Source: Pomacea canaliculata (taxonomy: Eukaryota > Mollusca > Gastropoda > Architaenioglossa > Ampullariidae). From it: a DNA stretch of 64,000 nt. The stretch covers positions 27,127,319 to 27,191,318 of the forward strand of contig NC_037591.1 of assembly GCF_003073045.1 (NCBI RefSeq), given 5' to 3'. This document shows positions 1 through 19,918 of the stretch, piece after piece; the first letter of the stretch is position 1, and each line of letters begins with the position of its first letter. The translations under genes were made by a program, and so were the position numbers. The notes beneath the pieces are model-generated. The model saw only the letters and a list, made by a program, of their open reading frames with translations, was not told the origin of the DNA and did no database searches.

Positions 1-110
1 GCATGAACAAATATAAAAGGCTGCATTATATATAAACACAGTTAAACACAAGTGAATATATATTTTTCATATAGGTAGAGAGAACGAAAAAGAAGAAAAG
101 AGATATACAG

Positions 111-485
111 TTATATTTTTTTTACATGTCTCCCCTCTTTTGAATCGAAAATCATCGCTATCATTAGTTTTACGCCGATTATCATTGTCCACATCGACAG
201 CCATATTTTTTTTTTAAATCGGCGATGACACAGTGCCTGCCATGAAAATGATCTAAAATCCATATTTCTCACATTGCACCAAACCCCACTCCTCCTACAA
301 CAAGGGGTCGATAGACAGGACCGCGGTGACGTCACAATGGTGTAATTTAGCTTGTTGTCCTCGCCACGCATATCTTTCAAAACGTCTGGGAGATCGAAAA
401 CTATTTCCTCGGCACTTAACTCGCAAACATCGATAGATGGCGTCTTTGTCGTGACCACCTGTGCACACACACTGAGCGCTTGCAC
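111..485 (-). CDS. possible orphan exon, unknown product
   Basis: An open frame of 124 codons with an acceptor-like GTGCACAG near its start. The first half (SIDVCELSAEEIVFDLPDVL) has a coding-like mix of acidic and hydrophobic residues, while the second half degenerates into basic and Phe/Ile/Met-rich sequence typical of noncoding frames. I do not recognise it. It lies on the same strand as the NERD-helicase gene, 3' of it, and could be a distal exon of that gene or part of a neighbour cut by the window edge. Confidence 0.2.
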   Translation of the reverse strand: MQALSVCAQVVTTKTPSIDVCELSAEEIVFDLPDVLKDMRGEDNKLNYTIVTSPRSCLSTPCCRRSGVWCNVRNMDFRSFSWQALCHRRFKKKIWLSMWTMIIGVKLMIAMIFDSKEGRHVKKI

Positions 486-3400
486 CTGTCAACCTTCAAG
501 GTGAGGCAACTCGGGCTAGTATTATAAAACACAAGTTCGATTTAAAAAACAACAACAAAAAGACCAGTAGAAAATGGAAGGAAATAATGGTCTATGCAAG
601 AAGATAAACACGATTTAAAATATCAAGTCCGGTGGGAGCACAGGCAAAATGATGGCAAATACAAAACTGATTATAAGACGGAAATAAAATCCACGCAGAA
701 TCAGTCAATAAGGACATTGAAAGCTTTCTTGTGTAATTCATCCTACAAACACTTGCGAACGACGAATTACAAACATAAAAATTTGACGAGCCCACGCAGA
801 CGACGGTGAAGGAAAGTAACGACGATTGGCCTGTAGTGTTGTCGAGATACACGATGGACACGTTTAGACCTTCAGCCGTAGTCTCAGAAATGTGGGAGTC
901 GAGAAAATACAGTTTCAGGAGATATACGATGACTTCAACAACACAACTCGTCCATCAGATGGTAGAAACCAGAATTTATTCTTTCCTTAGAACCTTCGAC
1001 CGGTCTTCTTTATTACTGCTCCACGCAGACATGTTCAACTGCCTCGCCATGACGTCTAATTTTTTGAAAATGACGTTGTCCAAATGACGCAATGGCGTAC
1101 AGAAAGACGTAGTACGCAGGACACGACACATGCACAATGTGAGACTGATAGATGTCTATAGACGACTGATGTCTGTCTGCCGAGACTCACTCTTGGCCTC
1201 GTGCGAAGTTCTCCGCGGTCAGTCTCGGCGAACCAGTTGACGACCTGACTTCCGGAAGAGCAGCGCGAAGATGGAATTTAACGAGACTTTTGATATCAAA
1301 ATATAATTACCGTAAGTGCATTACTTTGTTGCACTATTTAACTATTTTTGCCTATTTAGAACACGAAAGTATTTGCTTCCCTAGTCTGAAATCTTTCTTA
1401 TGAAATGATAAATAATATGAAACGCACATAAACATCTACAATCATCAAGTGTTCGCATATATGCTTAACCTCGGTATCTCACTTATATAAAATCCGCTTG
1501 TATGAGTAGCGTGGCTTGGCTTGTTTTCTATATTTATTTTTGCTCAGAATTTGGTATTTTATTATGCTTTCAGTATGGTGATTGCTTGTTACAAATTCAA
1601 GATAGTGGTAGTCCGTTAAAAAATCGGTAGTGGCAGCTAAGGTCAAAGACTTAATTTAATTTGTGCTTTTGTAACGCAACATTACGGCAGAGGAAGGTCG
1701 CACTCTGCGCCGACAGTAATGATAAAACGAAGACAATAGCTACACTGACAGATGCGGTGAATGCAGTCTTGCCATTCCACGTAATCTTCGATAAGTCAGT
1801 AAAGTTCTGCAACCAAAAATACCTGAAAGTTATTATAACATTTGTACGGAAGCTGCAATCTTCGCCCAACTCTGGCAGATAGAAATATCGTTCGATCAAC
1901 ACAACTCTTGTCGGTCATTGTAAGTTGAGCTTCCTTATGTCAGTCATGTCAGACTGGCCTGTATTGCACGAAAAAAGCTTGTTGTGAAGTTCGACATCAA
2001 CTATTTGTGAAGCAGCTGCAGGGAGGTAATCAGAGTTTGAAGTCCACTGCCCATGTGTAGATCTAAAAATCTAAATAACGGCTGACATCATCTCTGCGTC
2101 GGCGAAGGGGGAAGGGGCCGGAGGGGTTGTGAACTGAAAGCACTGGTGTTCTTGGTATGTTCATATACAACGACGTTTTTTTAAACAATAAGAATAATAT
2201 TTAATCGATACACTTCTCAAGTAATTTAATGAATGACGCGATTATTAATTACTAAATTTTTATGAGCATATCTTCGGCTATATGAAAATTGTCGAACCTT
2301 ATAGTCGCAGACTAAAAGCATGTACAGGAAAGAGGAGAGTATATATGAATAGATAAATAAGTGAGCCAACAATAAATATTTATCTTTTTTATGCACTCTT
2401 CTTCAAAGTGCCTTGAACAAATCTTGGCTCTCAATGGATTAAAACATTTGTCTGAGCGGCCTGTAGCACGAATGAGAGTCGCTCACAACAAACAACAAAA
2501 AAAAAAATCGTCTGCAAGCAGTCGAGGGATATTAGTTCGTGACTGACTTACAACTCGCTACAATATGTAATTAGTCTTGTCACTCAGACTTAAACATGTG
2601 GCGCGCAGCTAGCCTTATTGAAAGTCGCTAAATGGTGGTGATTAGTGAAAAGGAGGTTCTGGGGAAGGCGATAATCAAGATGATGTACCTGAAGTGTACA
2701 TATAATACACCCACATCCACACACCAAGCTTTGTCAGCTGATGAACCTCATCGTGTTATGCTGACACAGTCGTTACGTAGTCTAGGTCACGTGATGCAGG
2801 TCACAGGGTCGCACTGTTCCTGAACTTGCAGGGGTCACAGGAGTGGTGTCCCTTTCAACGTCTCCACACGGCAGCTGGTAAAGAATGAGGACAGACTGGT
2901 AATACTTTGCTCTAGTTGGTCTAGCCAGCTATACCGAACGAATCTCACACATCTTCCTACCGTTTTAACACTGGATTGATTAGAAATGTTGATCAGCATA
3001 TTTTTTGAAAAGAGCCTTCAAAACATAATGCTACATAAAACACTGGGCACATCAGTAACTTTGTTGGGACTAAAGATGATGATGTTTGTGATCTTTGTAG
3101 AAGTGAAAAGAAAACCTTCGGAATATTTTAGGGAGTGTAATTTCTTTGTGATTTTTTTATTTTTTTTTTTTTGGGGGGGGGGGGAATGCAAAAACATATT
3201 TGGAATAAATATACGAGTTCTTCAACGACGACTTTAAATGAAAATCTCGTTTTGAATCTTGAATGCAGTAATACTTCAAGAGAGGTTCTGTATTCGATTT
3301 AATTTTACTGCCTGAAAAAATATATATCAGTTTAAAAAACCTGCTCCAATTAAACAACTTTCACTAGATTAGTGCAATATGGAAATAAAATTGAAACGCT

Positions 3401-3729
3401 TTAAAGTAAGCATGGAAATGAAAGGGAACATTGATGCCCTTTATGCAACTTCTGGCTTAAATATAAATATTACTTATTTTCATTAATGAATTTATACTAC
3501 TTTCAATGTCTTTTGTTAATTGTGTGTGCTGTGTTTTGGTTTCATACTGCAACTGTAATGTATATTGTGATTTTATACGCGCAAAGTAGTTATAAATACT
3601 GATGTGATGTGTTGTAGAACGAATGCACATAAATGTGAAAAATTGTTATTTGTGGAAACCTGTTTGGTAAAAGCAAAACAAAATCAACAAAGAAACAACC
3701 TTCTTTCCACAGTGTCTAGACAAACCTAC
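486..3729. other. intergenic or intronic, no supported gene
   Basis: AT-rich sequence with no coding frame I can support. A short antisense pair of frames at 1651-1902 carries no recognisable motif. A poly-T/poly-G run sits at about 3157-3184. Confidence 0.6.
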
Positions 3730-4852
3730 TTAATCACTAGAGCGGACACAACACAGTACATAGTCGGATGAGCCAAGGACTGACAGCATTTTTACCGTGA
3801 TGCCAAGCCTGGTCACGACCTCACTGCCCACCATGTCAAACCACTGAGGCGACGCGTTCTTTGTCACGTGACTGATATCCACAACGCAATGAAATGGCCA
3901 CGGCCCCGGATGCAGGGGAGGATTTGGTTGAGGAGACTGGGTCTCCAGGAGCCAAGAGAATGTAAACGGGGATGTTGCGCTTGACCAGTAGGAGCCAGTC
4001 ATGTCAAGGCTTTACCATCAGCTCATCGAGGTTCAGGTTCTAGAAGAGCGACAGGGTAACATGGATGTTTAAGACTATGGAACAAGAAAAATTGTGATCA
4101 TCTCTTTTACAAAAGCAATGCTGGGGAATATGTTCAAGCCAATGCTTTAATACAAGGCGTTGATGTATTTATTAGAGAATCGTTCACGTTATGATGTACG
4201 TAAAGCACCATAACAGCAACGGAAATTTGGTAGAAAAATTATTCAGAATATTTTCTTTTCTCTAAAGTCCTTTAAAATGTTTTTATAAAAATATTCAATA
4301 GGAGTTTTTGTAGAATTTTTTTCCCCATCAACTCTAGAAAGGTTGGTTCTGAAGCGCACCATCGACATAGCATAAAAACTCGTTTTTCTGTACCTTCTAT
4401 GTGCAGACATTTCATTTGTATCTGTGACTACCCTAAATACGCTTTCTTTCTTCCCTTTCTTACACAAATTATATATATATGTATGATGAGAGATTTGCAT
4501 ATTTAAAAGATACATAGGTATACAGGTATTTTGACTAAATTATAAATCCTCAAATACTGATAGAAGGAAGGATAGAAAAAAAATTATAGAAAGACGAATA
4601 GACCTAAAGAGAGTCGGCTTCAGAGAGAGTGCGTGCACACACACACACACACGCACAGAGATTTAATTAGTATGCCTCAAACCTGATGAACAGGAAGTCC
4701 CAGAGTGTCGTCACGACGCCGACAGTGCTGCCATCTCTCGATGCTGCTTCCGACTATCTCCAGTCGGCAATGTAAGCTGGACCCGGTTAATATGTTCATC
4801 AGCCGGAGCCGTGTTTGGTGGACGACGCACTCTCCCGACCACCAAGAATTTC
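3730..4852 (-). other. possible degraded 3' exons of the ZU5 gene (Death-like?)
   Basis: Two patches on the same strand as the NERD-helicase gene look partly coding. At 4852-4680 an acceptor (CGTCGTCCAG) opens onto segments such as RVQLTLPTGDSRK and RRRDDTLGLPVHQ, in different frames. At 4039-3730 a good acceptor (CGCTCTTCTAG) opens onto NLDELMV, DWLLLVKRNIPV and FDMVGSEVVTRLGI, again in different frames; the order L..L...DW.LL...W..........VV..L recalls a Death domain, the usual partner of ZU5-UPA. No frame is open across either patch, so this is a weak, by-eye suggestion only. Confidence 0.2.
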
Positions 4853-5545
4853 CTGGACGACGAAAACACAAAGAAATCCTAACTTTTGAATGTACACAGT
4901 AAAGAAAATTAATGGATTGGCAGGGTGCAGTATAAATCTGAATATATAAATACTCCCCTTCCCTGATTTATTAGTTGCTCTTTCTAAGAACGACAAAGAA
5001 TTTTTATCTATACACCACCTGGATCAGCTTGTTCATATATCCATTTTTTCGCTGTTCATAGCTTCATTAGACTGACCCTAACCCTGACGTCTTAAGTGGT
5101 CATATTTGTACATGGTTTCACAATTCTGTTGTTGTTGTTTTTTTTTTTTTTTGTTTTGTTTTTTTTTTTTTAATCCCGTTGTGTTCAGGCATCATCAACT
5201 CTTCCTTTAGATTCTGATTTCATTATGCTCTGTACCACTAAGCACTTCCACTTTCATGTATTTTCTGAATAGCACTAATGCTTTTGATTGGTTGCTGTTG
5301 TTACTTGTGATTCTCTTATTGTATTTTTTCTTTAAGTTTCTGTTGTTGATAATTGTTTTCACGTGATGACCACGTACTATAAGTTCACGATTTAATGGCA
5401 TCCATCTAATCTATAAAAAAAAAAAATTAAAAGAATTCAGTTTTGTAAAACAAAAAAAAAAAATGGAAATAAATATTCGTATCTGTGTACGAACGTGACT
5501 TCACGATATTGACCTCTTTCTCAGCATGTTTATGTTTGCAGATAT
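4853..5545. other. noncoding spacer with poly-T tracts
   Basis: Noncoding stretch between the ZU5 exon and the weak exon patches, with T-rich tracts at about 5130-5172 and A-rich runs at 5415-5463. No gene seen. Confidence 0.6.
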
Positions 5546-6421
5546 TTATCTTAATGAGTCCATAATGATCAGAAATACAGCTACCGCTTTGAAGTCTTTA
5601 ATGGCGAGTCTCTGGTCCCAGATGTACACAGTGACTTTGGCAGAGGGATGGCCAAGCTGTGTCTGCGGGTAGAAGGCAGTGGCAAGCACCATGAGGGCGG
5701 GGCCGGTGACCCCTACTCCCTGGTACACGCACGCGTAGCCGCCGCGCAGTTGGACCGTGGTGACGTAGATGTGTCCATCAGACCCCACCTCAACCATCTC
5801 GGTCTTCTCTGTGTCCTCCGCTTCTTCTTCCGAGACGCCCTGCTCTTCATCTTCCTGACTCACCAGTCTTTCCGCAGGGCTCAAAATATGGCTGACATGT
5901 TCAGCGGTGGTCAGTCCGGACGAAAGGTGACCTCTGGCCAGGTTGTGACCTCTCGACATGGCGGGCTTCATATGGCGGAAAAGGTGGGCTGTCCTACTTT
6001 CGAGCGTTCCAAACAGATCACGTACACCTTCGTCGGGTCGTGACCAGGTGGAAGGTAGTGCGGCAGTCGGATCCGCACTGGCTGCAGGAACCGGAAGTGT
6101 GCGCCGACCCACAACTCCACCAGCGGACTAGGCGATGTAGACGCTGCCAGTGGCGAGGCCCATCAGGCGCTGCACCTGCGCCAGGTTTGGCGCACGACCC
6201 GGCGTGAACCGCCGCCGTGACGTGACGCCCCACTGCGTCAGAAGGCACATACAGAACGACGTCCGAGTCGCCGTGGTTGAAGGCGCCGCCGTCGCAGGTT
6301 ACCGGGTGTACGGCGTACCAGGTGGGGCAGAACACTGGGGTGGCTGTGAACATATGGCTGGCGTGCCGCTGTTGACTGCAAGCCTCTCTGCTGTCTGCTG
6401 GTGACTCGGTCTCCTTCTGGC
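5546..6421 (-). CDS. ZU5 / UPA-like exon of the NERD-helicase gene
   Basis: The intron 6540-6422 (119 nt, ATG-repeat rich, acceptor TTTATAG) joins exon 5 in phase 1 to GQKETESPADS, which runs open into a ZU5-like core: VTCDGGAFNHGDSDVVLYVP, then GSVYIA, SPLVELWVGAHFRFLQPVRI and RLPHYLPPGHDP. The last string matches the ZU5 signature of F.kPV.l.lPH. The core is spread over three frames, with shifts near 6190-6225, 6129-6132 and 5985-6010. The remainder (about 5546-5985) is a long open stretch with an acidic linker followed by VTVYIWDQRLAIKDF, which resembles the vYiwDd segment of UPA domains; that call is tentative. ZU5-UPA pairs occur in UNC5 receptors, ankyrins and PIDD, often before a Death domain. 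The stop at 5546 may be the true end, or a donor just before it may lead to further exons. Confidence 0.62.
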
Positions 6422-9400
6422 CTATAAACGTGGATCAGGCATCTGATTATTAGGTGAAAAGCGCTCAATTGATAAAATAAAAAAAAATGCGAGTGCTATA
6501 ACGAAAACGACGACGACAATGATGATGATGATGATGATACCTTGCACTTTAAGCTCCCCCCATACTCGTGTATGTCCACTGACAGGGCCAATTCCGGATT
6601 TCGAAGGGTATACCCACACCAGCTGCGCAGTACAGCGGGACAGACAGTGTAGCCTGTCATACATGGTGCCGTTCGACTGTCGGTCCTTGACCCCGACGTA
6701 GACCACGACCTTCCTCTCCAGCCCCAGCACGTTGGTCCAGTGCGCCACCCACACCACGTCCTGCGCTGCCTTTACTAAGTCACGGGCGTCCTCTCTTCCC
6801 ATCGGCCGCACCGGCACCTTCCGCTGTCGCAGACCTCCCAGCAGCCCTGATTGGTCGCCAACGTCACGTGACTCGCACAGCACCAGCACATCACTGAAGC
6901 GCAGTCTCGGAGCTGTGCTGCGCGCATTGACACTGGTGTTCCTGGCTGCCGTCGTCGTTACTGTCGTTACCACGGTGCTGGGCGTCTCCGACTCTGAATT
7001 GGAGGAAGCTGAGGTGACGTTGCTGGTTTCATCGCTAGACGATGTCGTTGTGGGGCTGCTGCCAGGTCCGGAGTCCGCAACTGAAGACGTGAAAACGGCA
7101 TTGCCGATAAAATCTTTTACTGTGGAGGCTTTTAAGGTTTGTAACTGATAACTAGGTTTTTGTTTATGACATTTAGTGACTAATGAAAGAAGAATTCCTG
7201 CCTAGATTTCTGTATCTTTATAAACTCCTGTTGTTTGATATTGGGACATAACTTGTACATTTCTAGATCTTTGAGACATTATTTCCAACTATTGAACACT
7301 TTTGAAAAAAAAAAGGTATGACAGAATCAGTTAATATAAGCTTTAAAAGTAATGTGCCACATCTATATCACTCGCTGCATTAACTTATACTGAGATGAAG
7401 AATACTGATACCAAGTTTTCTGGCTGGAAAGAAAACACTTTCTCGAACAGCACATGTGGAGCATTGTATTAAATAATTATTTTGACAGTTGATAAGGATT
7501 TTATGTTTACTGCTGCCTGTAAGGGACATTAGGCAAGACGTATGTGCAGTCTTCTAGGTGGAAGATTGAAAACGGCGATGCAGCCACACGACTTACCAAC
7601 GACTAGGCCGTTTAGAAAGTCGCCCACCTCTCGCCCACACGTTTCACAGTCGTGAGGGGCAGCACCAGTGTGAGCGTGGCCTTCATGACAGATGAACTTC
7701 ACAGGCGGTCCGTCGGTAGGGGAAGGGAGATTACTCTCGCTGTAACGATAAACATCCCCATCGCTTATCTCCTCCGCCTGCGCCACCTCCCGCACCACCA
7801 CGGGTGGCGATCGAAGGGCGTGGGTCAAGGCAACGCAGCGCCAGTAGGAGGAGCAGTGTCGATGCTGGCAGCTGGCCGCCCAGAGATGAAGGCCTGGAAC
7901 TCTGGCCCACAGCTTCTCACAGAAGTCTGGAAATCGAGGTCGCCTGGTAGAAAGTCACGTGGTTTAAAGAAACATCAGCCAACAGACAAAGTGCTCCACA
8001 TATCGACTTTTTAAATATGTCATCTTCAGGCAGTGCACAGACTGAGGCACAATAAATGGTAAAGAAGGTATTAGAGAGAAAGGAAAAAATGAGAAAGTGA
8101 TGAGAGAGAGAAACTGAAGATAAAGAGATGGCAGAGAGAGAAATAGGTTAAGGAGAAATGGGAGAAAAAGAAATGGGACAGGGAGAAATGGAAGAGAGAA
8201 TTGGAGAGAGAAAAAGGCATACCTATACACGAACCATGGTTTATTAATAAGCCTACCACTTTTCTAAATCTAGTTCCCATATTGTGTCTTCAGAAGGGAG
8301 AAGCCAGAAAATATTTTTACTACTGCAAAAACAAAACTATAACAGAAAAGAAAAACAGAAAGGATCGTAAATGTACACAAAAGTAATCAAAAAGAAAAGA
8401 GAGAAAGATTAGTGTGAGTAAAATGTTTCCCTGAATGGCAGCATCGCTCACCCGTAGTCTGGCCCAGCCTCGTCACACACAACAAACAAGCTTCCAGACT
8501 TTGCCTCTTTCACCAGGGACTGGACCGCCTCTAACATCTTGTGGGCTTTCAAGAAGTCGAACTCGTGCAAGCGCACTTCACCCAGCGTCTGCCCAGGTTT
8601 TGCCAGCGCGCTCAGACTGGCCAGCAGCAGGTGCTCCAGCAGGTAGGAGGCCAGTCGGCTCTCGTTCCACGTGATGACCACTTGGACGTCGTGACCACGC
8701 CGTAGCCACTCCCTCGCCGCCAGCAGCAGCACCACGCTCTTGCCCGTGCCGGGAGGTCCGCACACGAAGAGGCGACGGGAGGAGCTCGCCTCACTTGCAT
8801 CAGCAGCGTTAAGCTTGTACAGGGCGTGCAGACTGTCAAGGTGGCGGGCCATGTCCTGCAGCAGCTCCACCTGGTGGTGGTGGAGGGTGATCTGCGCGAA
8901 TATTTCTCCTGCTGTCGACACAGCTTCTGGCAGCGTCTTGAGCGACATCCGGGGCTTTGTGACGCATGGAACGGTGACAGTGGTGGCGGGTCCGCAAAAC
9001 CTGCAGCAGCAGAAGCAGCAGTCACCGTGCGTCAAAGGCAAGATTTTTATCCAAAATAGCGAAGAAAAATGTACTATAGTACTGATTACTATCACATAAT
9101 CTAGTTTTGTAGTCGATATCCTTGTTTTAAAAATGACATGATAAAATATAGGTAACAATATAAAGAGCTTAGCACAAAATGATTTAGAGGACTGTATAGA
9201 AGACTTAGGCATGAAGATGATTTTAACATATAAGCAAGCCTTTGTGAGTTTTACTGCACCTGCGTGCGGTGGTAATAGGGGTGGGTGGGGGGATATGAAT
9301 GCTTGTTTGTTGCTTTGATCTCAGCGACCTCAAGGTGACCAACCAGCTTTTGAGGGCGAACATAGCCACTAACCTGGCTAGAAGATTATCATAAAGGTCA

Positions 9401-10962
9401 AAGTCCATCAGAGGATCTCTTTTCGAGGAGACCACTAGTTTGTGCCACCACCTGCTCATCTTCTCTAAGACGTCAGGGGTGACGTCCCACGGTGTGGCGT
9501 AATGAGAAAGGTCATCAGAGCAGAGGCACAGGTCAGCAAGGTCAGCTGGTAATGGCCTCGACCCGAGGCATTGACCTAGGGACTAGAAGGGCACATAAGT
9601 GCGAACATGAAGATTATGCGATCGAAAAGCCTATATGGATATAGGATGAGGAATTGTGTCGATGCTTGCAGCAGCTGCCAAAGAAAAATGTTTCTAACAA
9701 AGGTTTTAGCGAAGCTGCTGATGGTGGTGTGTGTGTGTATAAAATCAACTGAGGTTGACTAAGATTTTTCTTTCTGATGTATTCATAATATAATAATATT
9801 ATTACTCTTATATGACAGTGGCTATCGATATTGCTAAAATCAACATTGATAAATAAACGTGCATGCTGCGATAGCAAAAATCACACATAACGAAAATCTA
9901 GGATTATATATTATAATTTGATGAATCGTTTTGAAGTGTTCCCTAGGATTGTTACAGGTCTCATGTACACTTCCACCCGACCCCCCCCCCCCCCCCTCAT
10001 ATAATAAAGACAAATGCGACTGAGTTTCTAGTCAGTATTATGATTAATATGATTTTATTCTAACTTGAAAAAATATAGTCTGCCGATTATACTATCTTTG
10101 TCTGACTTTGTGTGTCCGCAATAGCCGGCCTAAAGTTATTCTTTACGTTTCACTCTATAAAAATAAGGTCAAACATTTGGTACAGGAAGTTGCTGAACAT
10201 TAGCTCACCGTCTTCAGGTCGTTGTCACCACAGAGAGCTTGCATGATGTCCTGCCGTGTCACGTTTGGCAATACCAGCGACACCCTGATGGTCAAGTCGG
10301 GCGCCAAGTCTGACACGAGGTGCCGTAGCATGAGGCGGGCTTTTCTCATCTGCTTCACTGCTTTTTTGATCCTTTTCTTGAAGATGCTCAGGAAGTCACC
10401 GCACCCGCCTTCCTCAGATGATCTGTCTCTGAGCGACTTGATTTCGCAGACGATCAGGCCATGATGGCGGTGTTATGATGAGGATGTCGAAGTCACCCCT
10501 ACTAAGGTCCTTTCGTGACGACTGGTCATCCGCGGCGAACCGCTGGAGGTTTTTAGACTGGGGCAGCAAAGCGGTGGCGGCGGCGTAGGCTTCTTCGCCC
10601 AGGTAGTCACCGAACTGCAGCTGGCTCAGCATCACCATCGCCTGTTTCTCTCGTTCCGCCATCTTGGTCAGACAGAACAGCACGCGCTGCTGCGCCGCGT
10701 CGGTTTTGACTTCACTTTGGTGGACCAGAGAAAGTTGCCCTTCCTTGCGACGAGAGGACCGCTTGGTCTCCGGCTGTACATCGTCGCAAGGAGTTTGCGG
10801 GACATACACCGACTCGTCGGCAAAGGTCAGCACGTCGTAGGGCACGCGATTAATGTGGATGGCGGGGATGGTGTAGACCCCCGTGTGACGTCTGGGAAAC
10901 TGCTGGCGGATGTTGTCCAGCCAAAAGGCCATATTTTTTTCCAGGGCACTTGCTTCATCACT
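5546..10962 (-). CDS. NERD nuclease - SF1 helicase - ZU5/UPA-like gene, partial at 5' end, frameshifted
   Basis: Exons on the minus strand: 10962-10209, 9582-9374, 9000-8452, 7943-7597, 7080-6541, 6421-about 5546; all junctions are GT-AG and phases match (0, 2, 2, 1, 1). Exon 1 is NERD-like (PD-(D/E)XK nuclease fold): GDFDILIITP, then CEIKS with the E-x-K pair, in two frames separated by one extra base near 10465-10475. Exon 3 has Walker A GPPGTGKS (about 8733-8762) and Walker B LFVVCDEAG. Exon 4 is intact, with a CETCGR motif. Exon 5 carries SF1 motifs V (HWTNVLGLERKVVVYVG) and VI (LHCLSRCTAQLVWV). Exon 6 encodes ZU5. Exon 1 opens at a splice acceptor, so a start exon lies upstream, unseen. 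Likely an ATP-driven DNA or RNA helicase with a nuclease domain; an immune role is inference. Exons 2-5 are fully open. The frameshifts mean pseudogene or assembly error. Confidence 0.82.
6519..6540. repeat. (ATG/CAT)n microsatellite at a splice donor
   Basis: Six or so ATG units directly abut the donor of helicase exon 5 on the minus strand, so on the transcript the intron starts GTATCATCATCAT. Repeat length changes here would sit inside the donor region. Confidence 0.8.
8045..8220. repeat. GA-rich purine tract in helicase intron
   Basis: About 170 nt of almost pure purine on the plus strand, with GAGAGA, GGAGAAATGG and AGAAAGG motifs repeated imperfectly. It lies in the 508-nt intron between helicase exons 3 and 4 and gives spurious low-complexity open frames on the minus strand. 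Confidence 0.75.
9721..10020. other. intron sequence with GT and poly-C runs
   Basis: Inside the 626-nt intron between exons 1 and 2 of the NERD-helicase gene: a GTGTGTGTGT run near 9729 and a poly-C run of about 18 nt near 9979-9997. No other feature. Confidence 0.6.
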
Positions 10963-18128: not shown

Positions 18129-19918
18129 ATGCAGTTTGTGAAAAGTGATTCACGTCCCATGCATCCTGAGTGGCCACTTTCTTCTGATGTCAGGCTCTGC
18201 CAAGAAATAAAACAGGAAGTAGAAGTTGATGAGATGGAAGTTGTTAAAAGTGAAGCAGCAGCAGGACAGCATGGCATGGAAGGTTTGTCATGCTGGATGA
18301 AACCAAAATTAACTTCATTTCAGAGTCAAAAACTCAGACAGTCAGTAGGTCACTCAGCACTAGAAGCAGCTGGACTAGGTCACTCCACTTTCAAGAAAAA
18401 TGGAGATTGTTTCAAACACCGGCAGAGTCCATGGACAGAATCCCAAGCATCACAGTTTTGGAGTTCACATAATATAGAAGTGGAGAATCAGGAAGATAAT
18501 ATTGAAGATGCAGGTTCTAAACAGAGGGATACAGACAGAGAACAGAAGTCATTAACCACTGCAACAAGTGGACTGGAACAAGAAGCAGACAAGTCATTGA
18601 CAGACAGGCACAGCAAGCTGCCTGCTGATATGTCAGAATTAGTTTGGGTGAAGAAAGAGCGGAATGAGTCGGTGACCAAAGATAACTTGGTACATCAGAA
18701 AGAGATGCAGCTTTAGATGACCAGGAACAGGTAGGATGTTATTCAACTGACAGTTGTCACAATGCATTTGGCACTCAGCTAAACACTGATCAAACAGCTA
18801 CTGGGACTCCTTGTGGCAATAATCCATCACAAGTTATGGCCCTTCCATCAGTACCAGTCTCTTCACCCAGTTCACAGGACTCTACCTACAACTGCCGTCA
18901 GTGCTTAGGCACTTTCAAAACCTCTGATGATTTGCTGAGACACATGGCTTTTCATGCAGAAGCAAGACCATTCAAATGCATGCATTGCACAGCTCCTTTC
19001 AAGACATCATCTGATTTATCAAAGCATATGGTGGTGCACAATGATGTTAGACCATATAAATGCAGTAAATGTACAGACGCTTTCAAAAGGGCATCTGATT
19101 TGGCCAAGCACATGGTAGTTCATAGTGAGGTTAAACCTCACAAATGCAGTGAGTGCGCAGCTGCTTTCAGAACACCCTCACAGTTGAAGAATCATGCTCT
19201 GGTTCATGGTGGAGCCAAGCCTCGTCACAAATGTACACTATGTCCAGCATCTTTCAAAACATCTTCGGATTTGTCTAAGCATATGGTGGTTCACAACGAT
19301 GCCAGACCTTTCAGGTGCACTGAGTGTACATCTGCTTTCAAACGAGCCTCTGATTTGGCAAAGCATATGGTGGTTCATAGTGACGAAAGGCCACATAAAT
19401 GTGGCGAGTGTGCCGCTGCTTTTAAATCCATTTGCCAGTTGAACAGACACATGCTGGTTCATGATGACAGGAGACCTCACAAGTGTAGTCAGTGTGAAGC
19501 TGCTTTCAAGCTGGCATCTCATTTGAAGAATCATAAGCTTATTCACAGTGATGCTAGACCTCACAAATGCAGCGAGTGCTCGGCTGCATTTAAGAAAACA
19601 ACAGATTTGCTGAAGCATATGCTGGTTCACAGTAATGTCAGACCTTATAAGTGCAGTCAGTGTGCCGCTGCTTTCAAAACAGTAGAAAAACTGAAACTCC
19701 ATAAATTGGTTCACAGTGACATCAGACCTTATAGTTGTGATCAGTGTTCAGCTTCCTTCAAAATGTCGTCCTACTTAAAACAGCACATGCTAGTTCACAG
19801 TGAGGCGAGGTCACATACGTGCAGCGAGTGCTTAGCACCGTTTAAAACTGCTATTGCACTGAAAAAGCACTGGCTTGTTCATGGCAAAGGAGAAGCCACT
19901 CTTGAGTCTCAGGGATAA
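18129..19918 (+). CDS. C2H2 zinc-finger protein, 12 fingers, one frameshift
   Basis: Two overlapping-gene-sized frames form one coding unit. 18129-18716 (ATG start) is an acidic and Ser-rich N-terminal part with sumoylation-like IKQEVEV and VKSEA motifs. From about 18690 a second frame is open (SERDAALDDQEQVGCY) and runs through MALPSVPVSS (18836) to the stop at 19918. It holds 12 C2H2 fingers of 28 residues (C-x2-C-x12-H-x3-H). Between fingers the linker is VH(N/S)D.RP(Y/H)KC rather than the usual TGEKP. A single missing base near 18690-18700 would separate the frames. Likely nuclear and DNA-binding; target unknown. The coding part lies in one exon. If the shift is real, translation from ATG 18836 would still give all 12 fingers without the acidic N-terminus. 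Confidence 0.85.

Follow-up and report, generated by a model that had tools for sequence, protein, structure and literature searches.

Nucleic-acid sensing in molluscs is poorly known. A stretch of chromosome C2 of the snail Pomacea canaliculata (C2:27127319-27191318, 64,000 nucleotides, hereafter the window) raises the question of whether a single animal gene joins a NERD nuclease domain, an SF1 helicase and a ZU5 domain, as a first-pass annotation of this DNA had proposed, and what the product of such a gene might do. Here we consider the copy in the window together with its relatives in the genome that was searched, which comprises 440 Mb in 24 contigs.

The copy in the window

The proposed gene consists of six minus-strand exons, all of which were confirmed, at about these positions:

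10209..10962, minus strand: exon 1, NERD domain (GDFD ... ExK), with one frame change near 10466-10471 and a putative start
9374..9582, minus strand: exon 2, a linker common to the family, matched in 20 locus/strand combinations, window included
8452..9000, minus strand: exon 3, helicase Walker A (GPPGTGKS) and motif II (VVCDEAG), AAA_22 27.4 bits
7597..7943, minus strand: exon 4, middle part of the helicase, with a His/Cys stretch (HxGxxH...CxxCG) that is conserved in the comparison of paralogues
6541..7080, minus strand: exon 5, motif V/VI-like end of the helicase (GLERKVVVYV, SRCTAQLVWV)
5585..6421, minus strand: exon 6, ZU5 domain in which HFS is replaced by VQLRGG, with two or three frame changes

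These exons had been described as one uninterrupted phase series. The splice phases, as read from the sequence, are indeed compatible (0, 2, 2, 1, 1), but the frame is not continuous. GDFD, ExK, Walker A, the DE of motif II and motif-VI-like residues are present, but GDFD and ExK do not share a frame: the two halves of the NERD motif, GDFDILIIT and HHGLIVCEIK, are separated by a break near 10470. The ZU5 exon opens in one frame (HASHMFTATP...), carries FRFLQPVRI and RLPHYLP in a second and ends in a third (MKPAMSRG...DFKA), with the changes placed between about 6190 and 6138 and near 5971. Since a short stretch between the first two of these frames looks coding in the third, we count two or three frame changes in this exon rather than a fixed number, and thus three or four over the whole gene. 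Because of these frame changes and the loss of HFS, in place of which the window copy reads VQLRGGY, the copy as assembled is unable to make the whole protein, and it represents either a damaged copy or the outcome of assembly errors.

That the gene is in fact intact, all of its frame changes being errors of assembly, is a real possibility to which we give a little less than an even chance. Its nine in-frame pieces together hold 1043 stop-free codons, and in each of them GC3 exceeds GC2, which is a base composition of the coding type; yet HFS is substituted where there is no nearby frame change, and breaks or stops occur in five of 20 sampled relatives too (an exon split between frames in L023 and L039, a stop inside a match in L022, L033 and L036), so damaged copies are not rare.

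The profile searches bear out the first-pass annotation only in part. With the frame breaks bridged by X, Pfam AAA_22 is above its cut-off (27.4 bits vs 27), whereas NERD (PF08378; 20.1 bits vs 22.1) and ZU5 (PF00791; 20.6 bits vs 21) are below theirs, and UvrD_C, UPA and Death were not found in the window. Exon 4 has no Pfam match above chance, and its His/Cys stretch, which reads HxGxxH...DCxTCG in the window and the paralogues, looks zinc-binding. Exon 5 has no Pfam match, and the segments GLERKVVVYV and SRCTAQLVWV, named by eye, are presumably motifs V and VI. Judged on the window alone, the claim of a NERD-helicase-ZU5 gene would be borderline.

Elsewhere in the window, positions 18686-19915 of the plus strand hold a C2H2 zinc-finger gene with some ten fingers, and two of the 86 ORFs in 11000-64000 match Pfam Trypsin (best E 9.7e-8). 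A Pfam scan of positions 1-5700 gave no UPA, Death or CARD; its best match was THAP, a weak one (E 0.0058) in one of 41 minus-strand ORFs.

The NERD-helicase family and its ZU5-bearing array

What the first reading missed is that the window copy belongs to a family of hundreds of copies. Matches to the helicase exon number at least 299 across the genome, and those listed include clusters on C11, C14 and C7. A further helicase query, and one built on NERD, yielded at least 150 matches each, counts that are lower bounds from the best 150 candidates scored. In 20 sampled 10-kb loci, a non-random sample drawn from the top matches, exons 1 to 5 recur in the same order, with some exons missed. GPPGTGK[ST] is found at 23 places in loci L020-L041, and the written NERD motif pattern (GDxD ... 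ExK) is matched by 15 exons in L020-L044, that of the intact L043 included. Pfam NERD is above its cut-off in four other copies (27.8-28 bits), and among the matches listed stops occur in 5 of 148 non-window NERD rows. The tentative assignment to SF1 draws on Walker A, on AAA_22 in the window or AAA_19 in L040, each above cut-off, and on putative motifs V and VI recognised by eye; UvrD_C has no Pfam match in the window or in the composite of L043 and L040 described below. In 11 of 18 genes the automatic models broke down, most often where exon 4 joins exon 5, so that the spliced proteins are approximate.

Most ordinary members for which motif VI is in view (11 of 14) end 5-13 residues past it, and the other three (L021, L023 and L036) read on. 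Not one of the 39 loci L001-L039 matched the ZU5 query from L040 (E up to 0.1), nor was there a match in L020-L039 with the window pieces as query. Behind exon 5 of L039 there is an ORF of 236 aa. We did not favour a transposon as the source of the many copies, since these retain several introns and are clustered. A bacterial or viral source was considered as well, and of the 95 and 61 pattern matches in two scans none was confirmed. PADLOC and NCBIfam gave weak matches, mostly P-loop, and the helicase core has no PDB match at E 0.1.

The genome contains 20 Pfam ZU5 matches, all above cut-off. Nine of them form an array at C2 26.56-26.94 Mb, on the same chromosome and minus strand as the window copy and about 190-570 kb from it, with open frames of 325-383 aa. 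The helicase query finds at least 16 helicase exons in this stretch, and every array ZU5 exon (9/9) is preceded on its own strand, at a distance of 3.9-15.0 kb, by a helicase exon of the family. One relative, L043+L040, reads through all six exons with NERD, helicase and ZU5 unbroken: a NERD domain that shows GDFDLLIIHQTYGLVVCEVK is followed by the linker exon, by GPPGTGKS and exons 4 and 5, and finally by a ZU5 frame of 342 aa that is intact. In Pfam this composite scores 38.8 bits for ZU5 (cut-off 21) and 27.2 bits for AAA_19, both above cut-off, and 18.2 bits for NERD, below the cut-off of 22.1. A second array gene, L041, was read from the helicase exon through to ZU5, and the remaining seven are known from their coordinates and from 271-base reads of the ZU5 end. 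Given the ZU5 score of this relative and the nine ZU5 exons that each follow a family helicase exon, the layout is more than chance. Thus the proposal of NERD, SF1 helicase and ZU5 in one gene holds, and it is the recurrence in the array, rather than the window copy, that carries the architecture.

It could be argued that two neighbours have been read as one: a NERD-helicase gene of the ordinary kind, complete with exon 5, followed by an independent ZU5 gene. We consider this improbable. Although seven of the 16 array helicase exons among the matches listed have no ZU5 match, and ZU5 exons occur away from the NERD-helicase family as well, each of the nine ZU5 exons of the array stands behind a helicase exon on its own strand. 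The early stop past motif VI in most ordinary members would suit two genes, and the unspliced exon 5 of L040 also runs into a stop, but exon 5 of the window has an open frame as far as its donor, from which the junction to exon 6 is in phase 1; L041 and L040 likewise allow a phase-1 junction, the donor of L040 being weak. Behind the ZU5 exon, a phase-0 donor occurs at the same position in the window, L041 and L040; in L050, a further array copy, a stop closes the ZU5 frame shortly before this conserved donor.

Several ZU5-type helicase exons (87-90% alike) at C2:26.57-26.94 Mb alternate with a second type (58-65%) that has no ZU5 match, a pattern that would fit duplication of a unit of two genes.

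In a tree of exons 1-5 (20 rows) the window copy stands beside L024 (98/95), in which no ZU5 was found, and L040 groups with L041 (100/100). Holding the window and the array together was weakly disfavoured (p-AU 0.038), and a tree of the helicase exon alone has little support. A single origin of the ZU5 tail is thus weakly disfavoured, and the tail may have been gained twice or lost many times. Among 28 pairs of ZU5 tails, 25 have a dN/dS ratio below 1, as do most pairs of helicases; a few close pairs exceed 1.

The HFS motif and a possible role in defence

A second feature that the first reading missed is the HFS motif of the relatives, which the window copy has lost. Of 17 ZU5 loci outside the window, 12 were read beyond the ZU5 core, and all 12 of these modules have HFS: the nine array genes, C4:18.49, C4:25.20 and an ankyrin-repeat gene at C2:20.78. 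Since the array genes are near copies, these 12 modules count as four paralogous groups, and the ZU5 modules outside the array are 34-38% identical to the array query. According to the accessible part of PMC3210808, CARD8 is cut at F296/S297 within an SFS motif, and UNC5b has Leu in place of the Phe. The best solved-structure match of the ZU5 exon is ZO-1 (2kxr; 5.9e-9 with a profile).

Further ZU5 exons were seen outside the array. A cluster of four lies at C4:25197327-25221979 and another exon, in a 589-aa frame, at C4:18485531, all with 36-38% identity to the array ZU5; both C4 copies that were read (L044 and L052) have HFS. Giant ankyrin-repeat genes occupy L053/L054 (C2:20776800-20777030 and C2:20778000-20781999, minus strand), in one of which 1333 aa of open ankyrin-like repeats were read, with a ZU5 carrying HFS further down. 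A second ankyrin-type ZU5 gene with a long ORF lies 20 kb away.

The first-pass annotation had placed a UPA module beside ZU5 and had drawn a link to death signalling, and neither was borne out. Pfam UPA has four matches in the genome, on C1 and C4 and none in the array or the window, and none of the 38 Death matches falls on C2 between 18.02 and 32.15 Mb. The tail behind ZU5 is conserved and is not recognised by Pfam as UPA, nor did Pfam recognise a death-fold or UPA domain in ORFs of at least 25 aa in the 3.8 kb behind one intact copy (L042). Neighbouring ZU5 and Death matches do occur on C1 (31.60/31.62 Mb and 28.459/28.472 Mb), and a ZU5 beside a sub-threshold Death on C4 (21.046/21.048 Mb); the searches were therefore able to detect such pairs.

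Our leading interpretation, which we put forward tentatively and at a little less than even confidence, is that the window copy is a diverged member of the NERD + SF1-helicase family, of its minority ZU5 type, that this family serves in intracellular nucleic-acid defence, and that the ZU5 of the array genes is self-cleaving. In such a system the helicase would use ATP to engage DNA or RNA that is foreign or out of place, and NERD would cut the engaged nucleic acid. The ZU5 of the array genes would cut itself between the F and the S of HFS. Much as in NLRP1, CARD8 and PIDD, the C-terminal piece would then be retained up to the engagement, degradation or rearrangement of the N-terminal part. Several lines of evidence are consistent with defence and self-cleavage, namely HFS in every module read, the size and clustering of the family and the prevalence of dN/dS below 1; against them stand ZO-1 as the best structure match of ZU5, the lack of a recognised UPA, Death or other death-fold domain, the missing HFS of the window copy, and the stops or frame breaks in L050 and in five of the 20 sampled loci. 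By analogy with the animal switches named above, we infer that the NERD-helicase-ZU5 family may have an immune role.

Alternatively, the protein could be an enzyme of nucleic-acid repair or of genome defence, with transposons as one conceivable target, and its ZU5 a scaffold that stays uncleaved. The non-cleaving ZO-1 domain as the best PDB match of ZU5 and the lack of a recognised signalling domain would fit such a scaffold, whereas the retention of HFS in 12 of 12 modules from four paralogous groups argues against it, and a housekeeping enzyme would not usually exist in hundreds of diverging copies. On balance we regard the scaffold as unlikely. Returning to defence with a self-cleaving ZU5, one may go further and envisage an inflammasome-like system: among hundreds of NERD-SF1 genes, those of one tandem subfamily would bear a self-cleaving ZU5 switch, and engagement of nucleic acid by the N-terminal part would free a C-terminal signalling piece with an unrecognised output domain; this more specific proposal we consider doubtful. 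A nuclease-helicase family this large in a single animal, some of its members carrying a ZU5 with the cleavage motif seen in PIDD and in inflammasome proteins, would link the NERD + helicase layout known from prokaryotes with the death and inflammation switches of animals. The ZU5-bearing copies hint at an innate immune sensor of a type not yet described.

Comparison with known systems

In the open-access literature, with subscription papers and preprints outside the search, we found no account of a NERD + ZU5 + helicase layout, and the open-access literature likewise yielded no NERD or nuclease-related domain in molluscs. With regard to the ZU5 end, the snail gene resembles NLRP1 and CARD8, with their FIIND (ZU5-UPA), and PIDD1 in that ZU5 lies on the C-terminal side of a nucleotide-binding sensor part. 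The array ZU5 carries HFS as do PIDD and Nup98, and CARD8 and NLRP1 carry SFS, according to the accessible part of PMC3210808. Unlike in NLRP1, CARD8 and PIDD1, the front consists of NERD and an SF1 helicase rather than NACHT-LRR or LRR, no UPA, CARD or Death is recognised, and cleavage of the ZU5 is predicted. ZO-1, the best solved-structure relative of the ZU5 exon, is a non-cleaving tight-junction scaffold of another layout.

With regard to the front, a nuclease-like domain also precedes an SF1-type helicase in prokaryotic NERD + UvrD-type proteins (PADLOC C3a187; E 0.016, near chance) and in the phage-defence enzyme Nhi (E 0.015, near chance), but the snail family, unlike these, consists of multi-exon animal genes, some with ZU5. 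The helicase exon also has a sub-threshold match to the Schlafen group III helicases (19.0 bits vs a cut-off of 24); in contrast to that group, no Schlafen core was found and the N-terminal nuclease of the snail family is NERD. The invertebrate TRADD-N + ZU5/FIIND proteins are similar in their lineage-specific expansions with ZU5 and predicted autoproteolysis, but carry a TRADD-N adaptor rather than a NERD-helicase, and the term NERD is absent from the accessible part of their description (PMC8195603). The nearest precedents are thus NLRP1, CARD8 and PIDD for the ZU5, prokaryotic NERD + UvrD proteins, through weak matches, for the front and, judging from the accessible part of PMC8195603, the invertebrate TRADD-N + ZU5/FIIND proteins for an expanded set of ZU5-bearing defence genes.
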